Source: a virus | Direction: 5' to 3' (one strand) | Length of the DNA: 27,489 nt | Virus record (IMG/VR): IMGVR_UViG_3300020183_003769 | Span: 1-27,489 of that record | Shown: positions 7,375 to 17,202 of the stretch, in pieces | Position numbering within the stretch: the stretch's first letter is position 1 | Layout: each line of letters opens with the position of its first letter | Program-made: the position numbers and the translations under genes | Notes under the pieces: generated by a model | Seen by the model: only the letters and a program-made list of their open reading frames with translations | Database searches by the model: none | What the model was told of the DNA's origin: nothing

Positions 7375-7391
7375 TAGAATACTATACACAG

Positions 7392-7417
7392 ACCCGAATT
7401 TTTTCGGGTTTTTTTAT
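7392..7417 (+). terminator. Rho-independent terminator
   Basis: ACCCGAA, then a TTT(T)-type loop, then TTCGGGT and a run of T. It ends the 6781-7374 operon. Confidence 0.85.
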
Positions 7418-7435
7418 TTAATTCATACAAATTAC

Positions 7436-7470
7436 TTGACAAATCAAAAAAAGTGTCCTTTTTTTATAAC
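7436..7470 (+). promoter_or_regulatory. Possible promoter for the leader-peptide transcript
   Basis: TTGACA at 7436-7441 followed by AAATCAAAA and then GTGTC, nearly identical to the promoter at 14655 (TTGACAAATCAAAA...TGTC). The -7 position is less clear (TATAAC at 7465). It lies upstream of the small reading frame at 7491. Confidence 0.45.
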
Positions 7471-7490
7471 AAAACGTATAGAAAACACAA

Positions 7491-7553
7491 ATGAAAACAT
7501 TACATATCATATCTTTAATAGGGTTAGCTGAGGCTGGTGACGATACTATTTAG
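7491..7553 (+). CDS. Possible 20-residue leader peptide
   Basis: ATG at 7491 to TAG at 7551 encodes a peptide beginning MKTLHIISLIGLAEAG. Its stop codon overlaps by one base the 5' arm of a helix that competes with the downstream terminator. That placement, not the peptide sequence, is why I list it. It could be a chance frame. Confidence 0.4.
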   Translation: MKTLHIISLIGLAEAGDDTI

Positions 7554-7618
7554 GGAGATGGTGTGATAATTTACATATATTAATTTTTAAACCCATCTCC
7601 AAAAGAGGTGGGTTTTTT
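7553..7618 (+). terminator. Attenuator-like terminator with competing helix
   Basis: Terminator hairpin: CCCATCTC (7592-7599), CAAAA loop with 7600, GAGGTGGG (7605-7612), then six T. The 5' arm also pairs perfectly (8 bp) with GGAGATGG at 7554-7561, which gives a mutually exclusive antiterminator. The upstream arm begins at the stop codon of the 7491 peptide, so a ribosome there would cover it and favour termination. What lies downstream is the tRNA/structured-RNA region, although that has its own promoter at 7649. Confidence 0.6.
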
Positions 7619-7648
7619 GATTTTATATGAAAAAAAATTAAAAATTAT

Positions 7649-7679
7649 TTGACAGTTAAATAAATAATGATTAATTTTG
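7649..7679 (+). promoter_or_regulatory. Bacteroidota-type promoter of the tRNA cluster
   Basis: TTGACA at 7649-7654 and TAATTTTG at 7672-7679; 20 bp separate TTG from TA. It directly precedes a boxA-like sequence. Confidence 0.75.
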
Positions 7680-7683
7680 TGGT

Positions 7684-7694
7684 GTTCTTTGAAA
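7684..7694 (+). promoter_or_regulatory. boxA-like antitermination element
   Basis: GTTCTTTGAAA just after the promoter. The same core GTTCTTTGA occurs at the 5' end of the large RNA (14712) and of the tmRNA (17209-17217, minus strand). Bacteroidota rRNA leaders carry very similar sequences, and E. coli rRNA boxA (GCTCTTTAACA) is related. The expected role is recruiting Nus factors to stop premature termination. Confidence 0.6.
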
Positions 7695-7712
7695 TATTGG
7701 TCATGAAAAGAT

Positions 7713-7794
7713 TGCGGGGTGGAGAAGATGGTATTCTCGGTGGATTTAGGATCCATTGTCGAAAGACGTGAGAGTTCGAGTCTCTCCCTGAGTA
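7713..7794 (+). tRNA. tRNA-Leu(UAG)-like, acceptor stem mismatched
   Basis: D-arm GAGAA/TTCTC; anticodon stem GTGGA/TCCAT with loop TTTAGGA (anticodon TAG); long variable arm GTC-GAAA-GAC as in class II tRNAs; T-arm GAGAG-TTCGAGT-CTCTC. The 3' acceptor strand CCTGAGT does not pair with the 5' strand TGCGGGG beyond three positions. It may be decayed, repaired after transcription, or part of a larger structured RNA. Encoded CCA is absent. Confidence 0.65.
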
Positions 7795-7828
7795 CAGAAG
7801 ATGATAGGAAGTGTAAAATAACAAACAC

Positions 7829-7883
7829 GGAGAGGTGTTCACAAGGGTACACACTAAGGATAGGTAGAAATACCCAACTCTCT
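7829..7883 (+). ncRNA. Small three-way-junction structured element
   Basis: Outer stem GGAGAG (7829-7834) with CTCTCT (7878-7883), enclosing hairpin GTGT/ACAC (7835-7852) and hairpin GGTA-GAAA-TACC (7863-7874). It lies in the tRNA transcript between tRNA-Leu(UAG)-like and tRNA-Asp and is not a tRNA. A further hairpin GATAAA/TTTATC follows near 7916-7931. Confidence 0.4.
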
Positions 7884-7942
7884 AATGGTGTGTGAAGTCA
7901 AATGACGGGATTCCTGATAAAGTTATTTATCATCTTTTATTT

Positions 7943-8014
7943 GGTCCATTGGTGTAACGGCTAACATACATCCCTGTCACGGATGTGCTTCGGGTTCGAT
8001 TCCCGGATGGACCG
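7943..8014 (+). tRNA. tRNA-Asp (anticodon GUC)
   Basis: Acceptor GGTCCAT/ATGGACC, anticodon stem ACATC/GGATGT region with loop containing GTC, T-arm CGGG-TTCGATT-CCCG, discriminator G. CCA is not encoded. Confidence 0.95.
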
Positions 8015-8091
8015 CAATATGACGATAATATTATTTATATTGTTTTTTGGGTTTGTTTTACTTATTAGAAAAATAAAAAACCCATAAATTT

Positions 8092-8179
8092 GCTCGGGTG
8101 GTGGAATAGGTAGACACGCCAGACTTAAAATCTTGTGGACTTTATGTCCGTGTGGGTTCGATTCCCGCTCCGAGTACCA
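8092..8179 (+). tRNA. tRNA-Leu (anticodon UAA), CCA encoded
   Basis: Acceptor GCTCGGG/TCCGAGT (G-U pairs at both ends), D-arm with GTGGAATAGGTAGACAC, anticodon loop CTTAAAA (TAA), a long variable arm GGACTTTATGTCC as in class II tRNAs, T-arm GTGGG-TTCGATT-CCCGC and discriminator A, followed by an encoded CCA. Confidence 0.96.
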
Positions 8180-8187
8180 ACGATAAA

Positions 8188-8261
8188 CTTCAGTTCCCAC
8201 ACAGCGGTGAGATGGGCTAAGTTAGATACAATTCCTCGGAGCTGGGAGTAGAAAGCTGAAG
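8188..8261 (+). ncRNA. Structured RNA element in the tRNA transcript
   Basis: CTTCAG (8188-8193) pairs with CTGAAG (8256-8261), and TTCCCA (8194-8199) pairs with TGGGAG (8243-8248), leaving an internal region with GCTAAG, TTAG and CTCGGAG that could fold further. It sits 9 bp after tRNA-Leu(UAA) and 9 bp before a tRNA-like element. No coding frame and no known RNA family recognised. Confidence 0.45.
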
Positions 8262-8270
8262 AGTCGTGTT

Positions 8271-8348
8271 TGTTAGGAGTGTAATGAGGCTAGGTGCCGA
8301 ATCCTGTTAGAAGGTTTCTCATTGTGGGTTCGAATCCCACCCTAACAT
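8271..8348 (+). ncRNA. tRNA-like element: acceptor and T-arm without normal D and anticodon arms
   Basis: Acceptor TGTTAGG (8271-8277) pairs perfectly with CCTAACA (8341-8347), and the T-arm GTGGG-TTCGAAT-CCCAC (8324-8340) is canonical. Between them, only five bases follow the acceptor before AATGAG (8283-8288), which pairs with CTCATT (8318-8323). Inside lie GGC-TAGGT-GCC and an imperfect AATCC/GGTTT hairpin. This resembles the tRNA-like half of tmRNA (acceptor plus T-arm plus one long helix) more than a tRNA. A forced tRNA reading gives an 8-nt anticodon loop with TTA or TAG. Confidence 0.5.
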
Positions 8349-8411
8349 CTAGATTAAAGTTAGTATGGTATATTTTATTGCGGTATTCTAATATTTATTA
8401 TAAAAAATATT

Positions 8412-8812
8412 ATGAAATCGGAGTGTATAACTTGTGGAGTTGAATTTAGTTATTTACCAAGTCAAAAACTAGGGAAGTACTGTTCAAATAGATGTCAAGG
8501 TGATTTAAGGTTGATGAATAGATTTAAAAGGGTAGTAGATGGAATTACGCGATGGGTGGATATGTTAAAAGGTTACGTGGAACAAAATGTGAAATATGTG
8601 GTGTGAGGGAATGGAATGGAAAACCATTAGTATTACATGTTGATCATGTTGATGGTGATAGAACCAATAACGAATTAAATAATTTAATGATTTTGTGTCC
8701 TAATTGTCACTCTCAAACAGAAACATATGGTTCTAAAAATGTTTCACCTGGTGGTAAAATTAAAATGATTGAGTCAATTAATAAAAATAGAAAAGGTCTT
8801 ATAGCTCAGTAG
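8412..8812 (+). pseudogene. HNH endonuclease, single frameshift
   Basis: Two frames together give one HNH protein. The first (8412-8606) has an N-terminal zinc finger (CITCGVEF...GKYCSNRCQ). The second, one base out of register, is open from 8528 and gives KGSRWNYAMGGYVKRLRGTKCEICG, then the HNH core LHVDHVDGDRTNNELNNLMI and LCPNCHSQTETYGSKN. The switch falls near 8523-8533 (tttaaaaggg), consistent with loss of one base; a sequencing error in that run is possible. No -1 slippery heptamer fits the zero frame. The last six codons overlap tRNA-Met(CAU). Free-standing HNH genes of this type are usually mobile. Confidence 0.75.
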
Positions 8813-8868
8813 GTTAGAGCGGCGGTCTCATAAACCGTAGGTCACAGGTTCGAGTCCTGTTTGGACCA
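8795..8868 (+). tRNA. tRNA with CAU anticodon (Met or Ile2)
   Basis: Acceptor GGTCTTA/TTGGACC (one T-T mismatch, one G-U), D-arm AGCTCAGTAGGTTAGAGC, anticodon stem GCGGT/ACCGT with loop CTCATAA, T-arm ACAGG-TTCGAGT-CCTGT, discriminator A. CAU can be elongator Met or lysidine-modified Ile; the sequence alone does not decide. Its 5' end overlaps the HNH gene's stop codon. Confidence 0.93.
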
Positions 8869-8884
8869 CAAAAAAAAATAAAAT

Positions 8885-9151: not shown

Positions 9152-9760
9152 TTACTTAATATCCGTTGATTCGATGAGTGTGTAGGTAAATTTATTACCC
9201 CATATCTTCATCGCTTTTTTACATATCGACATGAACACGTCAAAATCCTTAACACGTTTAAATACCTGACACCCTTCGGACCAATTCTCAACCCAGGTAG
9301 AGTCTTGACCAGCTTTGTGAATATTAATACCAAACATACCGGTATCAATTTTAACTTCTTCAAAAACCAAGTCCCTATTTGAATCCCTGAATACCTTAAC
9401 ATTCCCGAGTCTTTGACATAAAGCTTCGTATTTACCTTGGTGTTTGTCTATTGAGTAAACTCCACGATATTGTCCTGGTATTAATCTAGCTACACCATTT
9501 TTATTATGAAATTGTTGTACACCTTTTTTACCAGGATCAGTCGTTGCCATCCAACAATAGAATTGTTCTACACCCTTTTCATCAAAAAATGAAAGTGTTA
9601 AACAATCATCAAAAACATTTGTTACTTTATCAGCAACACTTGGTGAATTATTTCTAACACCAACTATATTCACATCGTACCCTTTCTTTTTTGGGTCTGA
9701 AAACCAAACATAATTTTTTGATTTTACAGCTGTTTCTATTTGTTCTTTAGTGTAACACAT
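9152..9760 (-). CDS. Endolysin-associated protein with SxGC motif (YkuD-like?)
   Basis: 202 residues. The key segment is GMFGINIHKAG followed by VENWSEGCQVFK: a histidine, then S-x-G-C, reminiscent of the catalytic H...SxGC pattern of L,D-transpeptidases (YkuD). I recall similar proteins beside endolysins in Bacteroidota phages. It starts 2 bp after the stop of the amidase gene, so the two form a minus-strand operon for cell-wall work. The YkuD link is a motif-level inference; some residues of that family are not obvious. Confidence 0.7.
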   Translation of the reverse strand: MCYTKEQIETAVKSKNYVWFSDPKKKGYDVNIVGVRNNSPSVADKVTNVFDDCLTLSFFDEKGVEQFYCWMATTDPGKKGVQQFHNKNGVARLIPGQYRGVYSIDKHQGKYEALCQRLGNVKVFRDSNRDLVFEEVKIDTGMFGINIHKAGQDSTWVENWSEGCQVFKRVKDFDVFMSICKKAMKIWGNKFTYTLIESTDIK

Positions 9761-14723: not shown

Positions 14724-15632
14724 TTAAGAAATTATCCGTTCAGGAGTACGGTTAGATCCTTCGGGACAAACACCAGGAACTGATAAACGATAATTGGCTG
14801 TGTATAGTCGTTAAATAAACCACGAAAGTGGGATAAAGTGAGTCAACTGTCAAATTGATTTGCGTCTTGATGGACTTAGGATCATTGAGGTCGAGTACAC
14901 AAGCGGGATACCATAAGATCTTTAGTACCGAGGCCAACGGTGTAGGGAAAGTGATCTTATGATTAGGTGATGTGGGTCATCTGATTGAGGGGGGAACCCC
15001 AATAGGAATAACCCGTAGGGATCATGTGAGAAGTAGAGTTATCCAAACCTACAATTACGTATTCCAGTATTAAAGGATACTTAAAACCGAAAGGTATGTT
15101 AGTGTACAAGTGGTGTTGTTACTAACCTTGACCGTTCTCTACCAAGGGTTCGATCTCGAAGTAGTCTTAAAATATGGAAATGGGGACATTTCAGAGGGTA
15201 GTTGGGTATTTCGTTGTCCAAAAGATAATGAATCTCGAGACGGACCACTACTTTCACAATCCACGACACAAAACATTTTTTACAATAAGGATGTAAAATC
15301 ATAAAAGTATAAATGGAAAAGTGTCCGTCAGGTTTGGTCGAAAGGTGACTACCTAGTAACGAGCTGTTCGTTGCACATAAAGACCCCAAGTCTGAGTGTA
15401 TTTTTACCAAAGACCTCTAATCTCGCAAGGATCAACTGGGAAGGCATTCTCGGAGAGAGTTAAGTAATAGGAGAGTAGATCAAACCTTAAAGAGTGGTTC
15501 ACTTAAATAACCGTCACTGAGAAATACCATTCAAAAGATGGTGGATACGAAGGGAAACAATAATCCTTCTAAAGGTTCTCAATAACAGGTGTAATCTCAA
15601 CCTTTTTTTAAATTTTACTGGAAAAATAACTT

Positions 15633-16593: not shown

Positions 16594-17202
16594 TGGTGGA
16601 GGTGGAGGGACTCGCAAAATTACTCAATAATTTTCATTATCGTTTGGACTATATCATCATCTCATTGAGATGTCGGACGCTCTTGCTGGTTATTAAGTAT
16701 GTCGCCATACTCCAGTAGTCTCTGCACCTTCTTACTCTGTAAGCTTGGCTCAGGATTGCCACCACCATTACGTGCTGAGGTTTCCCTGAGTTCATCCGAT
16801 TTTTAATCTATTGTCACCAATAGATGGGTCCGAAATTAAACCCTCGTCCATAATATCCTGTAAGGTAAGGACTACATGTTTAGGTTGGTATTTTCTAACA
16901 CCCCAAAATAGTTAATTTGTTCTTCATCATCGTAAATTAACAACCAATGAACGACTCGATTTCGGGTTCAGTCGTGATCCACCTTTGTAAAGACTTCTGT
17001 TGCTAGGTTATATGTCCACCGACCCCCCGTTTCCGTAAACTTCTTAAGCTACAGTAACTTCAGAACCTCTTAGTAAACCAAGAGTTTCCATTTTGTTTAG
17101 CACATTGCCAGTTGTTTTCTGAATCAGTTTTTAAGGAGATTAATTCAGTCCCCACATGCCCTTATTCTTCAGCCAATACCTGTCAAATCCATAAACACCC
17201 CC
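16594..17202 (-). ncRNA. ssrA: tmRNA gene, interrupted by a group I intron
   Basis: The minus-strand 5' end GGGGGUG (17202-17196) pairs over 7 bp (one G-U) with CACCUCC before the encoded ACCA (16597-16594). The 5' end continues UUUAUGGAUUUGACAGG, the tmRNA signature after the acceptor. The 3' half has CCUAAACAUGUAGUCC and GGAC before the T-stem, as in other tmRNAs. T-stem GAGGG/CCCUC; T-loop UUCGAGU is assembled only after removal of 224 bases. Mature length would be 385 nt, normal for tmRNA. Most plausible tag frame: 17109 down to 17044, 21 codons ending SEVTVA and UAA; other frames exist. Its host-like promoter and boxA lie at 17254-17209, its terminator at 16588-16553. tmRNA rescues stalled ribosomes and tags their products. 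Confidence 0.92.
16615..16838 (-). other. Group I intron in the tmRNA T-loop (224 nt, no ORF)
   Basis: P1: exon GGGUU pairs with intron GACCC, with the required U-G pair at the 5' splice site (U at 16839). P2: CUAUUG-GUGA-CAAUAG. P4/Q-like: CUCAGG with GCAAUCCUGAGCCAAGC, the classical group I core. R/P7: GGUGCAGAGACUACUGG with AUAUAGUCC (GACUA/UAGUC). P7 insert: CUGG/CCAG containing GUAUG-GCGA-CAUAC. P8: CAUCUC-AAU-GAGAUG. P9: AUAAU-GAAA-AUUAU. The last intron base is G (16615). The insertion lies between U55 and C56 of the T-loop. Splicing is needed for a functional tRNA-like domain. Confidence 0.92.

Follow-up and report, generated by a model that had tools for sequence, protein, structure and literature searches.

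A candidate ribosome-controlled transcription attenuator ahead of a tRNA operon in uncultured Bacteroidota phages

We identified, upstream of the tRNA cluster in a viral sequence (IMG/VR record IMGVR_UViG_3300020183_003769; the whole stretch analysed, 27,489 nucleotides, is called the window here), a compact unit that is probably a ribosome-controlled transcription attenuator placed ahead of a phage tRNA operon. A profile search found 71 copies of this unit (44 of them distinct) in uncultured Bacteroidota phages, with a common layout: a promoter, a leader ORF of 20-24 codons (MKNLHI..L.GG.LA..E), an 8-bp antiterminator, a terminator and a boxA-like motif. The initial annotation of the window had read this locus as a leader peptide whose translation is coupled to transcriptional readthrough; that interpretation is supported and largely holds; that the promoters are used, that the ribosome stalls and which way the control runs are parts that we infer. 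The features of the window, all on the plus strand, are as follows:

7436..7470 (+), P1, the predicted leader promoter, a conserved block (TTGACA ... TTTTTTTATAAC; TTGACACTTTTnAAAAGTnnnnTATATTTATAAC in relatives)
7491..7553 (+), leader ORF MKTLHIISLIGLAEAGDDTI followed by a stop, 20 codons (ATG ... ATT TAG)
7499..7521 (+), segment 1, the 5′ arm of hairpin 1:2, within the leader ORF (partner at about 7546-7570)
7554..7561 (+), segment 2, the antiterminator arm GGAGATGG
7593..7600 (+), segment 3, CCATCTCC, the arm used by both the terminator and the antiterminator (pairing with 7554-7561)
7589..7618 (+), intrinsic terminator 3:4 (stem 7589-7615, then a T-run)
7648..7679 (+), P2, a predicted promoter with the Bacteroidota-type motif TTTG-N20-TAATTTTG, between the terminator and the tRNAs
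7684..7701 (+), boxA-like motif GTTCTTTGAAATATTGGT
7712..7795 (+), tRNA-Leu(tag), first of the cluster (ARAGORN), in which the 5′ end of a tRNA-Met appears to be joined to a tRNA-Leu
7943..8015 (+), tRNA-Asp(gtc)
8092..8179 (+), tRNA-Leu(taa)
8795..8869 (+), tRNA-Met(cat)

The geometry first described for the locus is exact in its coordinates: the ORF spans 7491-7553, GGAGATGG at 7554-7561 is perfectly complementary to CCATCTCC at 7593-7600, and the claimed terminator is present in the window as the stem 7589-7615 with its T-run. The "63-base transcript" of that description does not stand, as 63 bases is the length of the ORF, and a transcript running from the inferred promoter to 7618 would have about 145 nt. 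The leader RNA of the window is more stable than 200 out of 200 dinucleotide shuffles (z = -3.0). Since 44 distinct sequences also contain the unit as a self-contained block, the geometry is confirmed to lie far above chance expectation. A search with the Rfam covariance models gave no match over 7491-7618; a weak rimP match at 7382-7465 was under the cut-off.

Relatives were found among loci that share the protein encoded at 9152-9760 of the window (the nearest annotated phage relatives of this protein are largely Bacteroides and crAss-like phages), where a block matches window positions 7448-7623 at 70-81% identity. The profile was built from this block, and the loci searched with it came from three DNA-pattern scans; in the first profile run, true copies had E < 1e-25 and the best noise had 0.016-0.027. 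Four large records (213,924-304,365 bases) carry the unit, which is present as a single copy in 4 of 6 large contigs, and the leader start pattern occurs in exactly one copy per record in 20 records. Nearly all copies show the same succession, TTGACACTTTTnAAAAGT...TATATTTATAAC, an A-rich untranslated stretch, the leader ORF, segments 2, 3 and 4, and the T-run; the exceptions are locus L185, without the promoter, and locus L211, without the terminator. The latter (412-560) has leader and boxA intact and is a candidate constitutive natural variant. In the nearest relative of the window, L002, the tRNA operon is present and a different stretch of about 1.2 kb replaces the attenuator, which means that gain or loss of the unit is possible. 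Among the INPHARED phages no homologue of the unit was found, the sole match being 26 nt long and due to chance. When 84,980 genomes of bacteria and archaea were scanned with a pattern, 9 matches came up and none of them fitted the profile (best E 0.016); host genomes thus yielded no copy of the unit with this pattern. For the neighbouring 93-aa protein, one record matched, and it was near-identical.

The initial annotation had named conservation of both helices and of the frame in relatives as the check on its proposal, and the relatives agree with it: the competing arm covaries with the terminator, and the frame is intact in 43 of the 44 distinct copies. Helix 2:3 is paired in 95.5% of cells over 39 distinct rows, with four of its eight pairs changed on both sides, and its covariation score is 0.216, compared with 0.126 in shuffles and 0.010-0.042 when the partner is slid; helix 3:4 (95.6% paired) scores 0.231, compared with 0.124 in shuffles. 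Alignment column 132, which pairs in both helices, covaries with column 89 (in helix 2:3) and with column 148 (in helix 3:4), the three positions reading either U-A-U or G-C-G. Hairpin 1:2 is formed in all 39 distinct copies that were folded (mean z = -2.2). The competing sets are hairpin 1:2 together with 3:4 on one side and helix 2:3 on the other, and the three helices are of similar energy in nine examples. In copies with the short form of the leader (see below) the register of hairpin 1:2 is shifted, and His codon 5 is changed synonymously from CAT to CAC, so that TTACAC can pair with GTGTAA.

There are two main forms of the leader, one of 24 aa (MKNLHIILLGGLAIAEDRSYKEMV and its kin) and one of 22 aa (MKNLHISLIGGDLAEATFKERV and its kin); further types are found in L199 and in the divergent L209. 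Judged from pN/pS (raw pairwise proportions inside related sets, which are not tree-based estimates), the early leader codons are under purifying selection: the ratio is 0.28 in codons 2-17 and 8.6 in codons 18-21 of the 24-aa form, and 0.23 in codons 2-15 and 0.63 in codons 16-19 of the 22-aa form. The leader stop is preserved as a stop through exchange between TGA and TAA. The leader of the window is homologous to the relatives' MKNLHI[IS]L.GGLA.AED....E.V (then stop), and is an outlier among them: the homology extends to about codon 17, where a one-base shift brings in the TAG at 7551-7553. The 20-codon frame first annotated is thus real, but is a frameshifted version of the relatives' 22-24 codon frame; likewise, a stop ahead of the competing arm is true of the window, whereas in the relatives the stop lies inside the arm or just past it. 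We considered whether the early TAG disables the window leader and dropped this idea, since a stop at codon 21 still places the terminating ribosome on segment 2. The long form has no amino-acid constraint in the part of the leader where this shift occurs, and a ribosome at the stop would cover segment 2, so the switch in the window should survive.

The constraint on the peptide invites another explanation, in which the nascent MKNLHI...LGGLA would itself stall the ribosome on a small molecule or host factor and so free segment 2. Residues 1-6 are indeed nearly invariant in all copies, and Ala-Glu is found near codons 14-16 in most. However, residues 7-10 and 14 differ in kind between copies, the L209 leader is widely different, and the nucleotides of codons 4-9 are also constrained by hairpin 1:2. 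We know of no arrest motif that can be recognised in the leader peptide, and consider an arrest peptide unlikely.

For the attenuator that we favour, the position of the ribosome on the leader can be compared with the constraint. We modelled a stalled ribosome that covers positions -12 to +15 relative to the P site, on folded transcripts that end just after segment 3. In this thermodynamic model, the probability of helix 2:3 is about 0.9 up to codon 15 and 0.01 at codon 19, and the antiterminator forms only as long as the A site is no further than codon 16 in the 22-aa form or codon 18 in the 24-aa form. The modelled switch boundary is where the amino-acid constraint ends, and the constraint was measured without using the structure; past the switch codon, it is lost in the long form and weakened in the short form. 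The truncated transcript also prefers 2:3 with no ribosome on it (mean 0.87), and the complete transcript, again with no ribosome, prefers hairpin 1:2 with the terminator (fold of the window leader). In L228 (2366-2547) and L232 (19-200), the leader of one form is fused to the terminator of the other, apparently via recombination; these two loci with mixed terminators model as unable to form 2:3.

We propose that transcription would start at P1 and a ribosome would enter the leader ORF. A ribosome whose A site had come no further than about codon 16-18 when it stalled would open hairpin 1:2 and leave segment 2 free; the free segment 2 would pair with segment 3, no terminator would form, and the polymerase would pass the boxA-like motif into the tRNAs. 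If the leader were completed, the ribosome would sit on segment 2, the 3:4 terminator would form, and transcription would stop near 7618. The most likely signal would be a scarcity of charged tRNAs, including those that the operon encodes, so that faltering decoding would lead to more tRNA. Where P2 is present, as in the window, readthrough would add to the output of P2, and where P2 is absent it would be the sole route from P1. The virus may in this way make its own tRNAs only when translation falters, and the sensing of translation capacity, as first suggested for the locus, is compatible with the data.

The promoters of the unit have the form TTG-N-TAnnTTTG and fit the Bacteroidota promoter consensus (TTTG near -33 and TAnnTTTG at -7; PMC7366714); in the window copy of P1, the -7 element is degenerate and one base longer than in the relatives. 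The P1 spacer contains in most copies a palindrome, ACTTTTnAAAAGT (for example, at 10423-10441 of L022, minus strand), which is degenerate in the window and is a possible operator. The boxA-like motif, GTTCTTTGA[AC]ATATTGG, is present in every one of the 44 distinct copies, no more than 90 nt past the terminator. A P2-type motif is found in 16 of the 17 copies whose boxA is more than 20 nt beyond the terminator; in the other 27, boxA is directly past the terminator, with no room for a second promoter. The same boxA-like motif also occurs about 26 nt ahead of other tRNAs in these phages. It resembles GTTCATTAACATATTG / GTTCATTTGACATATTG in the 16S rRNA leaders of two bacterial genomes of the likely host phylum (close, not identical). 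In 20 of the 21 genomes of one bacterial family the exact boxA pattern did not occur, and the related GTTCATT form came to light only when the 16S leaders were read. As in the boxA leader of rRNA operons, a motif like GTTC[AT]TT[GA]ACATATTG stands ahead of a stable-RNA operon; unlike there, an attenuator precedes it and tRNA genes begin about 26 nt after it.

A promoter-like stretch and a terminator would also be expected of a short regulatory RNA (the alternative raised in the initial annotation) or of a small-peptide gene, either of them unconnected to the downstream tRNAs, and P2, where present, could make the tRNAs independently. Such a gene would leave unexplained the covariation of 2:3 with the terminator, the fixed place of the unit before boxA and the tRNAs, and the missing P2 in 27 of 44 copies; it accounts for neither the codon-level conservation of the leader nor the loss of amino-acid constraint past the switch point. 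We regard it as very improbable.

In line with the proposal that tRNAs are the output, a tRNA cluster lies downstream of the attenuator in nearly all loci with enough sequence. The clear exception is L158, with no tRNA detected within 11.9 kb downstream; the tRNAs were apparently deleted relative to L204. The first downstream tRNA is tRNA-Leu(taa) in 24 of the 43 loci with a detected tRNA, at 27-32 nt in loci without P2 or 84-110 nt in loci with P2, and the tRNAs that usually follow are Met, Ile(tat), Gly(tcc), Glu(ttc) and Asp(gtc). In several copies, the attenuator and the first tRNA seem to be separated by a protein gene that has its own promoter. In the window, the 5′ end of the tRNA at 7712-7795 matches tRNA-Met(cat) and the remainder matches tRNA-Leu(tag), which are separate genes in L002; the L002 stretch between these two genes, including tRNA-Gly(tcc), is missing from the window, possibly as a natural deletion or an assembly artefact.

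Codons 4 to 16/17 of the leader are enriched for codons read by the operon tRNAs in examples such as L090 (10 of 14, 4.2 expected) and L114 (12 of 13, 4.8 expected); in L209, the operon tRNAs read 10 of 14 leader codons (5.1 expected). Little or no enrichment is seen in L012 (4 of 14, 3.0 expected) and in the window (4 of 14, 2.2 expected). The fraction of leader codons read by operon tRNAs is 0.591 for a locus's own leader and 0.555 (sd 0.007) for swapped leaders (p = 5e-5 in 20,000 shuffles, relatedness ignored). Similarly, tRNA-Arg(tct) is found in the operon in 7 of 8 cases with AGA in the leader versus 2 of 32 without it (Fisher p = 1.5e-5, relatedness ignored). When the tree is taken into account, only 2-4 contrasts are independent, and the supported ones are concordant (about 2 of 2), with none opposed. 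Statistical proof of codon-to-tRNA matching fails on this small number of contrasts; since they are concordant but too few for a test, specific self-sensing of the operon tRNAs is kept as plausible but unproven. Tentatively, the leader could be a readout strip, with codons 4-17 polling the operon-encoded tRNAs: losing any of these (e.g., to host anticodon nucleases) would stall the ribosome and release phage tRNA synthesis, making the unit an inducible counter-defence sensor, which we hold to be possible rather than probable.

The same switch could instead be a general translation monitor, triggered by any slow or stalled ribosome, with leader codons that are unmatched to the operon tRNAs. In the ribosome model, a stall at any codon from 2 to 16 is enough to throw the switch, and the enrichment for cognate codons may come from common codons and shared ancestry, the independent contrasts being too few. 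On the other hand, own leaders suit own operons better than swapped ones in the comparison above, in which relatedness is ignored, and in the divergent L209 the leader contains codons for Thr and Arg and is poorer in those for Leu, while its operon has Thr and Arg tRNAs and its Leu tRNAs are located elsewhere on the opposite strand. A general monitor seems to us somewhat short of an even prospect.

Both readings keep the attenuator itself, which is similar to those of trp, his, leu, ilv and thr in having a short leader ORF overlapping segment 1, mutually exclusive helices, a terminator with a T-run, and leader translation coupled to readthrough. It differs from these amino-acid operon attenuators in that it is phage-borne, its output is tRNA genes and not biosynthetic enzymes, the leader has no run of a single codon, the leader stop is within or adjoining segment 2, and a boxA-like motif lies past the terminator. 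As is proposed here, more than one aminoacyl-tRNA is sensed by the thr and ilv leaders. The pheST attenuator (PheM leader) has phenylalanyl-tRNA synthetase as its output and tRNA charging as its sensor; here too the output belongs to the translation machinery and the proposed sensor is tRNA charging, but our unit is carried by a phage, has tRNA genes as its output and involves several codons. Leader-peptide attenuators have been proposed ahead of Flavobacterium psychrophilum amino-acid operons (PMC9723704), which makes leader-peptide attenuation plausible in flavobacteria, a group inside the likely host phylum, although those attenuators are upstream of amino-acid biosynthesis operons and ours is upstream of tRNA genes in phages. 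Among the open-access papers searched, we found none on leader-peptide control of tRNA genes or phage tRNA operons.

It has been unclear for more than 50 years why there are tRNA genes in phages (PMC10264068), the main ideas being codon compensation and evasion of tRNA-cutting defences (PMC10264068, PMC11555353). If true, a conserved ribosome-read switch would mean that phage tRNAs can be a regulated output, with stalling at defined codons as the signal; it would make the counter-defence idea directly testable, and would extend the outputs of leader-peptide attenuation to tRNA genes.

The window contains several other features. Two conserved stretches between tRNA genes, 7797-7942 (closed by AAGATGATA/TATCATCTT) and 8180-8265, look like unannotated structured RNAs, with no Rfam match above the cut-off. 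The sequence at 8268-8350 is tRNA-like, with a good T arm and acceptor ends, and is not called by ARAGORN; some relatives have about 38 extra bases inside it. Two overlapping frames at 8412-8812, also between tRNA genes, jointly look like an HNH endonuclease gene that a frameshift has split. Further downstream, positions 15194-15603 give a full-length match to GOLLD RNA (330 bits), and a tmRNA match at 16625-17202 (minus strand) is overlapped at its 3′ end by a group I intron match, which suggests an intron in a phage tmRNA gene.
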